A DNA stretch of 35,963 nt, taken from contig JAUXED010000013.1 of NCBI GenBank assembly GCA_030618105.1, positions 1 to 35,963 of the forward strand, given 5' to 3'. Origin of the DNA: Bacteroidota bacterium. Lineage in GTDB: Bacteria; Bacteroidota; Bacteroidia; Bacteroidales; VadinHA17. The position numbers and the translations under genes are program-made. Within the stretch, counting starts at the first letter, position 1, and the number at the start of each line of letters is the position of its first letter. The notes under the pieces are model-generated. The model was not told the DNA's origin and ran no database searches. It saw only the letters and a list, made by a program, of their open reading frames with translations. Below, in pieces: positions 1,854-32,477 of this stretch.

Positions 1854-1889
1854 CCTCATCACCTCATCACCTCATCACCTCATCACCTC
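1854..1889. repeat. Tandem octamer array (CCTCATCA), 4.5 units, containing the rpe stop
   Basis: Four exact copies of cctcatca (1854-1885) followed by cctc. The array fills the gap between two convergent genes. On the minus strand it reads GAGGTGAT and supplies the last rpe codons and its TGA. The same unit recurs at 25905-25936 and, inverted, at 383. Confidence 0.95.
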
Positions 1890-2531
1890 TTTTAATGCAC
1901 GGATTGTTTTAGAGGGATTATCTGAACTAAATACGGTATTTCCGGCTACCAGAACGTCAACACCTGCTTCAACCAGTTTTTTTGCATTTGATAAATTCAC
2001 ACCACCGTCAACTTCAATGAGGGCTTTTGATCCGGTTTTTTCGCGTAGTTTAACAAGATTGCCTATTTTTTCATAAGAACTTTCAATAAATTTTTGTCCG
2101 CCATATCCGGGATTAACTGTCATTATCAAAACCAGATCAAGTTCAGGCAGAATTTCTTCAAGCAGATCTACAGGGGTAAGTGGATTAAGTGAAACGCCCG
2201 GTTTCATACCCAGGGTTTTTATTACCTGCACTGTTCTGTGCAGATGTTTGCATGCTTCATAATGGACAGTAAGAACATCGGCACCTGCTTCATGAAATTC
2301 ATTCAGAAATTTGTGCGGTTCTACAATCATCAAATGTACATCAAGTGGTTTTGATGCAAGTTTCTTAATAGTTTCAATTAAATGAAATCCAAAAGAGATA
2401 TTTGGTACAAAAACCCCGTCCATAACATCAATATGAACCCAATCAGCTACGCTATTGTTTATCTTTTTTATCTCATTTTTCAAGCAGCTAAAATCAGCAG
2501 TTAGTATCGATGGTGCAACCAGATGGTTCAT
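1875..2531 (-). CDS. rpe: Ribulose-phosphate 3-epimerase
   Basis: Interconverts D-ribulose 5-phosphate and D-xylulose 5-phosphate in the pentose phosphate pathway; a cytosolic TIM-barrel metalloenzyme. The 218-residue protein has the normal family length and opens MNHLVAPSILTADF, with the catalytic strand WVHIDVMDGVFVPN (His and Asp metal ligands) near 31-44, DVHLMI near 64, MTVNPGYGGQKF near 138 and EVDGGVN near 173, which carries the second catalytic Asp. The last codons, GAG GTG ATG AGG TGA, are made of the octamer array, so the terminal EVMR is repeat-derived. The rpoD terminator lies just upstream, so rpe is probably a separate transcript. Confidence 0.95.
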   Translation of the reverse strand: MNHLVAPSILTADFSCLKNEIKKINNSVADWVHIDVMDGVFVPNISFGFHLIETIKKLASKPLDVHLMIVEPHKFLNEFHEAGADVLTVHYEACKHLHRTVQVIKTLGMKPGVSLNPLTPVDLLEEILPELDLVLIMTVNPGYGGQKFIESSYEKIGNLVKLREKTGSKALIEVDGGVNLSNAKKLVEAGVDVLVAGNTVFSSDNPSKTIRALKEVMR

Positions 2532-9486: not shown

Positions 9487-9939
9487 TTGGGTAGATATTT
9501 AGGAATAGATTACGGGATGAAAAGAACCGGTTTGGCTGTAAGTGACCCGACAAAAACAATTGCCAGTCCGTTCACTACAGTTTTAACAAACGACCTGCAT
9601 TCTTTCATTGAATCTTATATAGCAGATGAAGAACTTGAGGGTTTTGTTATCGGATATCCACGCCAGATGAATAATGAACCATCTGAAGCAGTGAGATATA
9701 TAAATCCCTTTGTAAAATATCTCGAAAAGAAGTATTCATATATTCCGGTTTACCTGGTTGATGAACGGTTTACTTCTAAGATAGCCATGCAGGCAATGGT
9801 TTCAGGGGGTATGAAAAAACAAAAGCGCAGAGATAAGGCGAATGTGGATAAGATAAGTGCTGCAATTATCCTGCAGTCTTTCCTTGATCAAAAAAATCCA
9901 CAGTCCACAGTCGGCAATCTAAAAACCCGAAACCCGTAA
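9487..9939 (+). CDS. ruvX: Putative pre-16S rRNA nuclease / Holliday-junction resolvase homologue RuvX (YqgF)
   Basis: An RNase H-fold nuclease; the family matures the 5' end of 16S rRNA, and a role in recombination was proposed earlier. The N-terminus GRYLGIDYGMKRTGLAVSD carries the first catalytic Asp; EGFVIGYPRQMN and VYLVDERFTSKIA follow, and DKISAAIILQSFLD gives the last acidic residue. The only plausible start is TTG 9487, since an in-frame stop (TAA 9469-9471) lies just upstream and there is no ATG before the conserved motif. The family normally ends soon after SFLD. Here about 15 more residues, KNPQSTVGNLKTRNP, are encoded by two heptamer arrays that also supply the TAA stop. The gene precedes def by 71 bp. 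Confidence 0.92.
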   Translation: MGRYLGIDYGMKRTGLAVSDPTKTIASPFTTVLTNDLHSFIESYIADEELEGFVIGYPRQMNNEPSEAVRYINPFVKYLEKKYSYIPVYLVDERFTSKIAMQAMVSGGMKKQKRRDKANVDKISAAIILQSFLDQKNPQSTVGNLKTRNP

Positions 9940-9952
9940 CCCGAAACTTGTA
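9895..9952. repeat. Two heptamer arrays forming the ruvX C-terminus and stop
   Basis: The first array, aatccac, agtccac, agtcggc (9895-9915), is read as NPQSTVG. The second, acccgaa, acccgta, acccgaa, acttgta (9925-9952), is read as TRNP and contains the TAA at 9937-9939. The first shares 24 identical bp with the array at the end of miaA. Confidence 0.93.
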
Positions 9953-10010
9953 ACATTTTAGTCATTCAAACTATGAGGTAATTGAATAGTTGCAAAAAAA
10001 TTTAAATAAC

Positions 10011-10583
10011 ATGATATTTCCTGTTTACGTGTATGGACATCCGGTATTAAGAAAAGTAGCCGGTAATATTGATAAGGATTACAAAGATCTGCAACAGTTT
10101 ATAGCCGATATGTTTGAAACAATGTATGATTCTGACGGAATTGGCCTGGCAGCTCCACAGGCTGGCAAATCCGTTCGATTATTTGTTGTCGATACCACCT
10201 CACTTAAGGATGAAGATCCTTCACTTAAGGATTTCAAGAAGGTATTTATCAATCCATTAATTCTTGAAAGGACCGGTGAAATCTCTCCTTTCAATGAAGG
10301 ATGCCTTAGTATCCCCGGAATCAGGGAAGATGTATCGCGAGAATCAAAGATAAGGATATCATACTATGACAGGGATTTTAATTTTTATGATGAATGGTAT
10401 GACGGAATACGTTCAAGAATTATCCAGCACGAATATGATCATCTGGATGGTATTTTATTTACCGATCATTTAGCTCCTTTAAAAAAACGCCTTTTGAAAA
10501 ACAAACTGAATGGAATATCAAAAGGTAAATTCGATGTTGATTATAAAACAGTTCTTCCGGGGAAGAGGGGAAGAAGTAAGTAG
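10011..10583 (+). CDS. def: Peptide deformylase
   Basis: Removes the formyl group from the N-terminal methionine of new proteins; a cytosolic metal enzyme. The 190-residue protein has the three family motifs: GIGLAAPQAG (about 46-55), EGCLSIPG (about 96-103, Cys ligand) and QHEYDHLDG (about 141-149, two His ligands and the catalytic Glu). The start is ATG 10011, giving MIFPVYVYGHPVLR as in Bacteroidota homologues. A TTG seven codons upstream is in frame but unlikely. The tail GRSK ends on a TAG that lies inside the first unit of a heptamer array, followed in frame by two TAA codons. It probably forms an operon with ruvX. Confidence 0.95.
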   Translation: MIFPVYVYGHPVLRKVAGNIDKDYKDLQQFIADMFETMYDSDGIGLAAPQAGKSVRLFVVDTTSLKDEDPSLKDFKKVFINPLILERTGEISPFNEGCLSIPGIREDVSRESKIRISYYDRDFNFYDEWYDGIRSRIIQHEYDHLDGILFTDHLAPLKKRLLKNKLNGISKGKFDVDYKTVLPGKRGRSK

Positions 10584-10603
10584 TAATAAGTAAGTAGTAA
10601 GTA
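10576..10603. repeat. Heptamer array (GTAAGTA) over the def stop, 4 units
   Basis: gtaagta, gtaataa, gtaagta, gtaagta in strict phase. The def stop TAG is at 10581-10583 within the first unit boundary. Confidence 0.9.
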
Positions 10604-10611
10604 GCGATGTT

Positions 10612-21293: not shown

Positions 21294-21342
21294 GATTGCC
21301 AACTGCTAATTGCCGACTGTGGACTGTGGATTGCGGACTAAT
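21294..21342. repeat. Heptamer array forming the miaA C-terminus and stop, 7 units
   Basis: gattgcc, aactgct, aattgcc, gactgtg, gactgtg, gattgcg, gactaat in unbroken 7-bp phase. On the minus strand the array encodes NPQSTVGN and the TAG (21308-21306) of miaA. The same 24-bp core is at the end of ruvX. Confidence 0.94.
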
Positions 21343-22220
21343 TCAAGTATTTTATTAACATCAGAAGGTTCAAACCAGTGGATGTTTTTATCTTTTTGGA
21401 ACCAGGTAAGCTGCCGTTTGGCATATCGCCGTGTATTGCGTTTGATCAATTCAATTGATTCAGCAAGATTGATCTTTCCGTCAAAATGGTTAAACAGTTC
21501 TTTGTAGCCTACGGTATTAAGAGAATTTAAATTCCGGTATTGGTATAATTTCTTTGCTTCCTCCACAAATCCGGCTTTCACCATCTTTTCTACCCGTTTG
21601 TTGATCATATCATATAGTTCATCTCTTTCCCTGTTCAGTCCGATTTTCAATACTTTGAAATTTCGCTTTTTGGTTTTATCGGTAAGAAAAGATGAGTATG
21701 GTTTCCCGGTTGAAAGGCAAATTTCCACTGCCCGCTGAATACGTTTGGGGTTTTTCAGATCAACTTTTTTGTATGACAGAGGATCGAGAAGCCGAAGATC
21801 GGTTCTAAGACTGTTAATACCTTCACTAATTAACTTCTCCCCGACTTTTGTTCTTATTTCAGGATCTACATCGGGAATATCATCAATCCCCTCACAAACA
21901 GCATCAATATAAAGTCCTGAACCACCGGTTATTACTACTTTATTTCTAACAGGAAATAATTTTTTCAGTAAAGAAATAACCTCTTTCTCATACATACTTG
22001 CACTGTAATAGTCGTGTATTGACTTATGTTGAATAAAATAGTGTTTTACCTTTTTCAGTTGAGATGGGGCAGGGACAGCAGTTCCAATATTAAGCTCCCT
22101 GAAAATTTGTCTGGAATCTGCTGAAATAATGTATGTATCCAGTTCGGTTGCAACCTTTATGGCAACTTCAGTTTTTCCAATACCTGTTGGTCCGAGAATA
22201 ACGATTAAAAGATTCGACAT
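21306..22220 (-). CDS. miaA: tRNA dimethylallyltransferase
   Basis: Transfers a dimethylallyl group to A37 of tRNAs that read codons starting with U, as the first step of i6A/ms2i6A. The 304 residues are of normal length and have the P-loop ILGPTGIGKTEVA (8-20), SADSRQIFRELNIGTA (34-49) with the catalytic Asp, the substrate loop DYYSASMYEKEV (about 71-82), GGSGLYIDAV (about 99-108) and the C-terminal NTRRYAKRQLTWFQKD near 274-289. The final NPQSTVGN comes from a heptamer array, not from the family core. The gene lies between a luxC-type gene and a sugar operon, all on the minus strand, with array-filled gaps on both sides. Confidence 0.96.
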   Translation of the reverse strand: MSNLLIVILGPTGIGKTEVAIKVATELDTYIISADSRQIFRELNIGTAVPAPSQLKKVKHYFIQHKSIHDYYSASMYEKEVISLLKKLFPVRNKVVITGGSGLYIDAVCEGIDDIPDVDPEIRTKVGEKLISEGINSLRTDLRLLDPLSYKKVDLKNPKRIQRAVEICLSTGKPYSSFLTDKTKKRNFKVLKIGLNRERDELYDMINKRVEKMVKAGFVEEAKKLYQYRNLNSLNTVGYKELFNHFDGKINLAESIELIKRNTRRYAKRQLTWFQKDKNIHWFEPSDVNKILELVRNPQSTVGN

Positions 22221-28202: not shown

Positions 28203-28385
28203 AACGTATTGATATTTAAGTTTATAATGAATTATTTGGATAAAATGAAAAACAAGTAAAATTACTAATATATTTTTTGTTTCCCGTAAACGGAACTAAA
28301 TAATTGATTAAATTTTCTTATTTTTATTCTCTGAAAAGAAAAATAGAAGTGGTTTCTTTTAAACAGGATTTGATAATTTGTGACT

Positions 28386-29627
28386 ATGAAAATAGGTTTA
28401 TTTAGAGAAAACCTCAAGGTATCAATTCAATCGGTAAGGACAAACAAGATACGGACCATATTGACTATTCTTATTATTGCATTTGGAATAATGGCTTTGG
28501 TGGGTATACTTACAGCTATTGATTCTATCAAGAATTCAATAACACAGCAATTTACTATGCTTGGCGCAAATTCCTTTACAATTGAGAGCAGGAGCATGAA
28601 TATTCAGGTAGGTGACAAGCGTTACAGAAAAAAAAATCATCCTTATATTTCGTATCAGGAAGCAGAAAGGTTTAAGGATGAATTTATTTTTCCTGGTGTA
28701 GTTTCAATTTCAATCGATGCTTCGGGTATGGCTACGGTAAAACGCAAATCGGAAAAAACCAATCCAAATATTTGGGTTATCGGGGCTGATGAGAATTATT
28801 TGAGGGTATCAGGCAAGAAATTATCAAGAGGAAGGAATTTTTCTTCTACGGAAATAGAGACGAATAGAAACTTTGCCATTGTTGGCTCTGAAATTGTTAA
28901 TAATCTTTTTGAAGATTCTGAAAATCCGTTAAATAAAGTTATTTCAGTCGGAAGTGGTAAGTATAAAATAATTGGAGTACTTGAAACCAAGGGTTCAAGT
29001 TTTATGGGGGATGAAAGGTTGTGTGTTTTACCGGTAACCAATGTACGGCAATATTTTTCACGTCCCAGGATGTCATTTAAAATAAATGTCTTACCTGATG
29101 ATCCAAAACTTGTGGGCGTTCTGGTTAGTGAAGCAGAGGGGGTTTTCAGGGTAGTGAGGGGGCTTACTGCCAGGGATGAGAGTGATTTTAACATTACCCA
29201 AAGTGACAATCTGGTAAATATTCTGATTGAAAGTATGGGGAAAGTGAGTTTAGCTGCATCCATTATAGGATTGATAACTCTACTTGGAGCCACGGTTGGA
29301 TTAATGAATATAATGCTTGTTTCGGTTACTGAAAGAACTAAGGAGATAGGTATTAGAAAAGCTATCGGAGCTAAGGCGCGAATGATCAAGCAACAATTCT
29401 TATTTGAAGCAATATTAATTGGTCAGATGGGGGGGGTTGTTGGGATTATTTTAGGTTTACTTGTTGGTAATCTTATGTCAGTTCTTCTCAAATCATCTTT
29501 TGTAGTTCCGTGGATATGGATTTTTAGCGGGGTTGCTGCATGTTTTGTTGTTGGATTAATTAGCGGATATATACCGGCAGTTAAGGCTTCTAAGCTTGAT
29601 CCGATAAAAGCATTACATTATGAATGA
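28386..29627 (+). CDS. MacB/FtsX-type ABC transporter permease, no ATPase neighbour
   Basis: A 413-residue inner-membrane protein with one N-terminal helix (about 22-45, [21 protein letters not shown]), a large periplasmic MacB_PCD domain (about 50-270) and three C-terminal helices (about 283-308, 340-365, 375-398) forming the FtsX domain. [29 protein letters not shown] is the coupling-helix motif of MacB/LolC-type permeases. Such proteins pull substrates or lipoproteins from the periplasmic face rather than across the inner membrane. The start is ATG 28386; a GTG two codons earlier is also possible. The ATPase and fusion protein that normally accompany it are not within 8 kb on either side, so it may use a distant ATPase. 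The stop codon lies in the first unit of an octamer array. Confidence 0.9.
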
Positions 29628-29733
29628 AGAAATGATTGAATGATAAAATGAGTAAATGAGTAAATGAGTAAATGAGTAAATGATAGAATGAGTAAATGAT
29701 AGAATGAGTAAATGAGTAAATGATAAAATGAGT
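29622..29733. repeat. Octamer array (AAATGAGT), 14 units, containing the permease stop
   Basis: Units of the form (A/G)AATGAGT, (A/G)AATGATA and similar follow for 112 bp without losing the 8-bp phase. The first unit, gaatgaag, contains the last sense codon GAA and the TGA stop. The longest pure run is four aaatgagt in a row. Confidence 0.95.
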
Positions 29734-29765
29734 TGAGTAGGTAAGTAAGTTGAGTAGGTGAGTAA
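29732..29765. repeat. 17-bp direct repeat, 2 copies
   Basis: gttgagtaggtaagtaa and gttgagtaggtgagtaa are adjacent and differ at one base. They follow the octamer array directly and share GAGT/AGTAA words with it. Confidence 0.85.
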
Positions 29766-31536: not shown

Positions 31537-31568
31537 GGACTGCCGACTGATTAGTTATATTTCATGTA

Positions 31569-32387
31569 CTAATAAACACCAGGTGCAGGGGACAGTTCCG
31601 GTTCAGAGATATTAAATTCGGGATTTTCAGGAAGTGGGGTTTTTGGATCAATAATATTGCCAAATCTGTAACTTACAAAAAGTGCGGGAAAAAACCAGAG
31701 ATTATCTTCACTTGCCATAATCGGTATTTTTTTCAGGAAGGCATCAAATGTAAACCCGATTTCAATAGCATGAATTGTCCGGTCAAGTTTACTGTATTCA
31801 AAATTTATCCCGGCCTTACCATAAGCCCCCGGGACAATTTTTATTTCATCAGCTCCTTTAAAGAATGATGATGGTCTGTAAATATCCTCAATTTTATGGA
31901 TCGATGCATTAAACTTTTCACTTCTCACTTCACTTTCATAAAGCGATACAGGGTAGAGTACATCGTAGTAAATAGGTTTATATAAGCTAATAGATGGTCC
32001 GCCGGAAAAAATGTAGCGGATAGCAATACCCCCCTGATCAATTTTTTTGAAAATCATATGCTGGAAACCCACTCCACTCCGGAGAGTTAATGCAAAATTT
32101 AACTTACCGAAAACAAACCGTCTGTTATTGGGAAAATAGGGATTGGTTGTTTTATACTCTTTAGGATGTTTAAGGATACTTATATCTCCCTCAAATATTC
32201 TTTTGTTAAAGAAATCGATCCTTTTCCCATACCTAAAGCTTAATCCGTAACCGGTTGAATTAAGCATAAGACCGATGGATTTCTCGTTTCTGAAAAAAGC
32301 TTTTTGCTGAACATCTAACTCTCCCTGCGAAATACCAACCAGGGAAGAAAAAATAAATATAAATAGAAGTAATGGGACCTTCTTCAT
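31569..32387 (-). CDS. Predicted outer-membrane beta-barrel protein, function unknown
   Basis: A 272-residue exported protein that I do not recognise by name. The signal peptide MKKVPLLLFIFIFSSLVGIS has a likely cleavage after GISQG. The mature part alternates hydrophobic and polar residues in strand-sized blocks, many rich in aromatics (GYGLSFRYGKRIDFF, FGKLNFALTLRSGVGFQHMIF, GGIAIRYIFSGGPSISLY, LWFFPALFVSYRFGN), as in small Bacteroidota porin-like barrels. The C-terminus is not the typical barrel end but a Pro-rich tail, KTPLPENPEFN and ELSPAPGVY, as seen in some lineage-specific proteins. The start is ATG 32387. A small lipoprotein gene lies 90 bp upstream on the same strand. Confidence 0.75.
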   Translation of the reverse strand: MKKVPLLLFIFIFSSLVGISQGELDVQQKAFFRNEKSIGLMLNSTGYGLSFRYGKRIDFFNKRIFEGDISILKHPKEYKTTNPYFPNNRRFVFGKLNFALTLRSGVGFQHMIFKKIDQGGIAIRYIFSGGPSISLYKPIYYDVLYPVSLYESEVRSEKFNASIHKIEDIYRPSSFFKGADEIKIVPGAYGKAGINFEYSKLDRTIHAIEIGFTFDAFLKKIPIMASEDNLWFFPALFVSYRFGNIIDPKTPLPENPEFNISEPELSPAPGVY

Positions 32388-32477
32388 AATGAACAAAATA
32401 ACTTAACCAAAAGATTTTATGTCCTGTGGTTCAGAATTTGATAACGGAAGGCGGAAAAACCCGAAAAAAGTTTCTGT

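Follow-up and report, generated by a model that had tools for sequence, protein, structure and literature searches.

A dispersed tandem repeat codes a common C-terminal octapeptide in RuvX and MiaA of a Bacteroidota bacterium

The window analysed here is a stretch of 35,963 nucleotides of contig JAUXED010000013.1, part of the draft genome of a Bacteroidota bacterium (G000; 2.39 Mb in 184 contigs). It holds two unrelated housekeeping genes, ruvX and miaA, on opposite strands, both with a tail coded by repeat DNA. The features at the two loci are as follows.

9487..9939, plus strand: ruvX, identified by open reading frame and translation (PF03652, 2.1e-36, residues 3-135 of 150), with the repeat-coded tail NPQSTVGNLKTRNP
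9890..9897, no strand: left copy of AAAAAAAT, read directly and taken as a target-site duplication; a single copy is present in the empty site of the congener G003
9897..9917, plus strand: array A, TCCACAG TCCACAG TCGGCAA, stop-free and coding within RuvX; the left inverted end is missing
9923..9947, plus strand: array B (AAACCCG/GTAACCC), which supplies the RuvX stop codon TAA at 9937-9939
9981..9993, minus strand: degenerate right inverted end GCAACTATTCAAT, with two mismatches to GTAACTAWTCAGT and a boundary uncertain by a few bases
9994..10001, no strand: right copy of AAAAAAAT, read directly
9990..10583, plus strand: def (peptide deformylase), adjoining ruvX (PF01327, 1.8e-48), with a likely ATG start at 10011
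21306..22220, minus strand: miaA (PF01715, 2.7e-74; IPPT, residues 38-276 of 304), with the repeat-coded tail NPQSTVGN
21309..21332, minus strand: the 24-mer shared with ruvX, within array A (21296-21337)

The sequence AATCCACAGTCCACAGTCGGCAAT is an exact 24-bp match between ruvX (9895-9918, plus strand) and miaA (21332-21309, minus strand), and it is translated in the identical frame in both genes as the octapeptide NPQSTVGN; in-frame translation gives a C-terminus of ...KNPQSTVGNLKTRNP for RuvX and of ...RNPQSTVGN for MiaA. A first-pass annotation had reported these 24 identical base pairs in one frame, with minus-strand coordinates (21331-21308) that are one base low, and had put the chance of frame agreement at one in three, which is correct and makes the agreement unremarkable. 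It had also noted that the arrays continue past both stop codons, as they do: array B extends to 9947 and the miaA array A spans 21296-21337. Tandem Repeats Finder places 7-bp arrays at 9897-9912, 9923-9947 and 21315-21339. At the RuvX end two distinct 7-bp families follow in succession, A (TCCACAG/TCGGCAA) and then B (AAACCCG/GTAACCC), and the repeats TCCACAG, TCGGCAG and TCGGCAA contain no stop codon in either direction. The leading AAT of the RuvX 24-mer is probably native, being the end of the left AAAAAAAT copy, so that about 21 bp of the match are repeat-derived.

Both patterns are abundant in G000. With up to two mismatches, pattern A is found at 60 + 68 places compared with 0 + 1 for the reversed pattern, and pattern B at 70 + 47 places compared with 2 + 2 for its reversed control; because these numbers are so far above the controls, the repeat in RuvX and MiaA is not a chance occurrence. 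A survey of pattern A in 60 relatives (up to one mismatch) found it in all seven members of the genus, at 15 to 105 places each, and patchily in the family (24 places in G014, 51 in G019, 42 in G032 and none in many), with at most one place per genome outside the family. Three genomes of the family, G021, G023 and G030, have reversed-control matches that outnumber pattern A (8 + 3, 10 + 5 and 13 + 5), and these presumably belong to another, unrelated repeat family. GC-rich palindromes (CCCGCCCG...CGGGCGGGC) lie in or adjoin many A arrays (L001, L003, L013, L015 and L171) and resemble a second, nested dispersed repeat.

In well-preserved copies the pattern A unit lies in the interior of a miniature transposable element (MITE). 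Most A arrays in the fetched loci have TAACTAATCAG or a variant of it directly before them, and the 13-bp inverted-end motif GTAACTAWTCAGT is present in high copy number, at 45 + 53 places in G000 (up to one mismatch) compared with 4 + 5 for the control. We took all 19 facing pairs less than 500 bp apart, chosen by eye among the 98 matches to GTAACTAWTCAGT; with up to two mismatches, these terminal inverted repeats bound short non-coding elements of 105-455 bp that begin with GTAACTAATCAGT and end with ACTGAATAGTTAC, position 8 being A on the left and T on the right. The interior consists of A arrays or a ACTTAAAGTGAAC... variant together with 8-bp arrays such as ATGAGTAA, and GCATTCCAAACTTAAGAC precedes the right end. 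The sequences flanking the 19 end-pairs agree at a mean of 6.05 of 8 positions, compared with 3.08 in mispaired controls. Six pairs are perfect, four match at seven positions, three at six and six at five or fewer, and the controls contain no perfect pair; widths of 4-7 and 9-12 bp show no excess of flank matches in these end-pairs, and the target duplication therefore has a fixed length of 8 bp. The first-pass annotation had proposed that intergenic repeat DNA became coding sequence twice: separate conversion in two genes is upheld, but the source is the interior of a MITE, as seen in its well-preserved copies, rather than free intergenic DNA.

Several further observations concern the elements themselves. 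A full copy, L177, has a predicted RNA fold of -60 kcal/mol (z of -7.4 relative to shuffled sequences). Two 455-bp elements, L165 and L174, share a similar additional interior segment in matching position and may represent a larger, ancestral form; three long inverted pairs with an open reading frame between them are present among the fetched loci; and the TATACTTTGCAT stretch of the element could be read as a putative promoter. A mobile four-helix-bundle gene within the element, suggested by a repeated MATGFRNLT-like start, was rejected, as three such starts open unrelated or very short frames. Elsewhere in the window a left-type end (ATAACTAATCAGT then CGGCAGTCCAC) is present at 31546-31558 (minus strand), about 10 bp past the stop of a gene at 31569-32396 (minus strand), and the segment 9387-9450, between a pyruvate:ferredoxin-oxidoreductase-like gene and ruvX, is similar, on visual inspection, to the interior sequence of the other variant of the element (ATGAGTAAATGGGAAGA...TTATAACTTTAGGCACTTC; compare L161 and L175).

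The end of ruvX in G000 carries an element remnant between two copies of AAAAAAAT, a sequence of low complexity. This site is polymorphic for the insertion, at this one locus, being filled in G000, G002 and G004 and empty in G003, which has one AAAAAAAT. None of the three filled sites has the left inverted end, and the array therefore directly abuts native ruvX codons; the TTGC that precedes the right AAAAAAAT is shared with the empty site of G003, which makes the right boundary uncertain. The RuvX tail is thus carried by G000, G002 and G004, the last with a longer element copy at the same place and a different tail end, STVGSRQESK. Three congeners lack it, ending in ...LDQKAANT (G001), ...LDCKKI (G003) and ...LDRKE (G005), and ruvX was not found in G006.

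The MiaA tail is restricted to G000 among the five congeners with a full gene; the others end in LIHKET (G001), LIRKEI (G003), LIRME (G004) and LIHKKT (G005), and in G005 an element end lies just past the miaA stop (GTAACAAATCAGTCGGCAG). Neither inverted ends nor a duplication was found around 21296-21337 in G000, and this array is not classed as a MITE on its own. Comparison with relatives, which the first-pass annotation had recommended, shows that RuvX and MiaA normally end earlier. Among the 30 loci listed for each gene, the RuvX tail is absent in 28 (the two carriers include G000, and G002 is a third carrier) and the MiaA tail in 29, G000 being the sole carrier. These endings can be set against the idea that the tail is native to RuvX and MiaA in this group and resembles intergenic repeats only secondarily. 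No supporting evidence for this was found; the RuvX tail is missing in G001, G003 and G005 and the MiaA tail in G001, G003, G004 and G005, and neither is present in the family- and order-level loci listed. A native tail is thus refuted by the congeners already and can be put aside with near certainty.

Other gene ends in the genus are coded by repeats. Among the first 100 of 128 matches to pattern A, three of the 36 arrays with a same-strand gene upstream overlap the gene end, at ruvX, miaA and an OsmC-like gene. The last of these ends in KESAVGNRQSAI, with a related SAVGN stretch (OsmC domain at residues 34-133 of 148); its endings are all different in five genomes, and in G004 and G006 it ends in VPKVSKV and VPKMPKV, judged by eye to be coded by another repeat. 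Among the best 30 matches to pattern B, three of 16 arrays overlap a gene end, at ruvX, a citrate-lyase-like gene (ending PETRNP) and a phosphoribosyltransferase-like gene, and a fourth, at an FtsY-like gene, begins right at the stop. The citrate-lyase-like endings differ across five genomes, two of them being B-coded; congeners carry different 7-bp arrays at this one spot, and no MITE ends were found near the B arrays of this gene. In six congeners the def gene ends in six different ways, with a single residue separating G000 from G001, and in the window its end, GKRGRSK, continues into a 7-bp array at 10571-10604. Two 8-bp arrays also touch gene ends in the window: a gene at 1875-2531 (minus strand) ends in KEVMR, coded by a GATGAGGT array (1854-1889) that also gives the stop, and a long array (AAATGAGT) extends over 29621-29764 from the stop codon of a MacB/FtsX-like gene (28380-29627).

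The occurrence of one peptide on two unrelated housekeeping proteins, and of the related SAVGN stretch near the end of a third, the OsmC-like protein, could suggest a functional C-terminal signal, such as a degradation or sorting tag, kept or spread by selection. The tail is, however, missing in most relatives, and at one and the same gene the ending varies between sister species; the OsmC-like case is accounted for by the same array; arrays are present at many non-coding places; and no more than the three of 36 A arrays mentioned above, from the first 100 of 128 matches, overlap the end of the gene before them. The shared signal that the first-pass annotation had entertained finds no support here and is rejected for lack of conservation; we regard it as highly improbable. 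The octapeptide is common to both proteins because copies of one dispersed repeat came to overlie both gene ends in the same one-in-three frame. Both tails lie beyond the matched Pfam domains, as does that of the OsmC-like protein, and neutrality is therefore the simplest reading and the most likely one.

Insertion sequences of the IS66 family have GTAA ends and make an 8-bp target duplication. Matches to the IS66-type transposase domain PF03050 were found in 15 of 59 family genomes, and inverted GTAA ends were sought in 20 PF03050 loci. Ends identical to those of the MITEs were found at one of the 20, L190, in G014, which belongs to another genus of the family. This is a 1,654-bp element that has GTAACTAATCAGT at both ends and is flanked on each side by GTTTTATT, and it encodes an IS66-type transposase as a single open reading frame of 482 amino acids (PF03050). 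Only the 13-bp ends are common to L190 and the MITEs, the interior being different. The inverted ends of L190 contain the stop codons of the transposase and of a neighbouring AAA/kinase gene, a parallel to ruvX. Locus L181, in G005, has ends with three mismatches and no 8-bp duplication (1/8), and L185-L187 have other ends, GTAAGC. A decayed remnant of an L190-type transposase C-terminus is present in G002 (58% identical with one stop, and 63% over the last 63 residues). In G000 there are zero matches to PF03050 and zero to the L190 transposase, in a draft of 184 contigs from which absence is not certain; the proposed mover is thus absent from this draft, and an IS66 parent within G000 itself was not found. 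IS66 is the likely parent family, given the element of a related genus in which identical ends and an 8-bp duplication flank a transposase of this type, and comparison of the ends suggests that such a transposase moved the MITE copies.

Dispersed heptamers of other kinds have been proposed to spread by slippage and recombination, and the heptamer arrays here could have spread alone in this way, the inverted ends being coincidental at some sites. The miaA and citrate-lyase-like arrays, which lack inverted ends, are in keeping with this, as is the citrate-lyase-like spot with its different 7-bp arrays in different congeners. For the A family, real transposition is shown by the inverted pairs, whose 8-bp duplication signal is sharp, together with an IS66 element with identical ends. 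As a general account slippage is unlikely; it may still explain miaA and some B arrays.

We therefore favour, with considerable confidence, the reading that a MITE family, probably mobilised by IS66-type elements, neutrally rewrote the 3' ends of ruvX and miaA. The family, with 13-bp inverted ends (GTAACTAATCAGT ... ACTGAATAGTTAC), an 8-bp duplication and an interior of 7- or 8-bp tandem repeats, would have spread within the genus, its mobilisation probably depending on an IS66-type transposase with a single open reading frame. In an ancestor of G000, G002 and G004, one copy would have inserted into the final codons of ruvX. Since the left inverted end is missing there, translation runs from native ruvX codons through the TCCACAG/TCGGCAA units, and in G000 and G002 it continues into the second array, which supplies the stop. 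At miaA in G000 a fragment of the array A repeat probably replaced the last few codons. The general route would be insertion of a MITE at or near the last codons, loss of the stop-bearing end, and translation of stop-free 7-bp units until another repeat provides a stop.

The elements sit preferentially in sense orientation downstream of genes. For A arrays, taken from the first 100 of 128 matches, the upstream gene points towards the array, with the array in sense, in 36 of 51 cases (two-sided p 0.005), and between co-directional genes 27 are sense and 4 antisense (p 3e-5). For B arrays, taken from the best 30 matches, the upstream gene points towards the array in 16 of 19 cases, and with co-directional neighbours 10 are sense and 2 antisense. 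These counts use open reading frames called by a simple codon score and uncurated, with copies that are not independent in descent, and leave out 17 of 71 A rows (10 taken to be right arms, 4 lying within an open reading frame and 3 repeating an array already counted) and 2 of 21 B rows (an array seen twice). Candidate causes of the bias are target choice, a benefit from the stop or hairpin, and selection against insertion the other way round. Of the three reading frames of the left end GTAACTAATCAGT, two contain stop codons. A bolder proposal, in our view unlikely, is that the elements are mobile gene-end caps: mostly sense and downstream of a gene, with stops in the left end and a long RNA hairpin predicted for a full copy, they may be tolerated or favoured for supplying a stop and 3' structure, so that C-termini in the genus are routinely rewritten by repeats. 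If the sense bias has a cause beyond gene placement, it would bear on the way in which the 3' ends of genes accommodate insertions or make use of them.

The RuvX/MiaA case is a clear further instance of a process already known and not a shared protein signal. It offers a comparative case of mobile DNA becoming protein sequence, in which a single genus shows occupied as well as empty sites, duplicated targets and several tails of independent origin, and it cautions that common C-terminal peptides need not be signals. Among the open-licence papers listed, we recognised none on this element family; the precedents are compared here from the available excerpts of their reports. The small mobile sequences RU-1, RU-2 and RU-3 of enterobacteria removed the normal stop of genes and added a C-terminus (PMC2759123); these too are MITE-like repeats that replace the stop and code a C-terminus beyond the conserved domain, but they have their own sequence, longer added peptides and no 7-bp arrays, and no IS66 parent is named in the excerpt. 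In Coxiella burnetii, several functional genes are likewise overlapped at their 3' ends by QMITE1 and QMITE2 copies, and one of these genes acquires a MITE-coded extension, although their sequences are different and the excerpt mentions no heptamer interior (PMC5896051). The BrickBuilt MITE of Porphyromonas gingivalis has a tandem-repeat interior and a Bacteroidota host in common with our elements, and differs in its 23-bp unit, IS5-like ends, 19 copies, duplications of varying length (3/4 copies) and a location described in the excerpt as always intergenic (PMC4596501). TAACTGA heptamers, dispersed in Beggiatoaceae, cyanobacteria and five Bacteroidetes with no mobile element or mechanism evident in the available text, are also 7-bp direct repeats, some of which overlap stops and are read as short C-terminal peptides, but they have another unit and lie mostly upstream of start codons (PMC4679880); in at least one genus, the present elements tie dispersed heptamer arrays, for which that text makes no mechanism evident, to a MITE of IS66 type. 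With IS66 insertion sequences themselves the likeness is in the ends, those of the transposase-encoding L190 being identical, whereas the G000 repeats are without a transposase. The RuvX/MiaA case unites features of the cited precedents and adds a likely IS66 parent.
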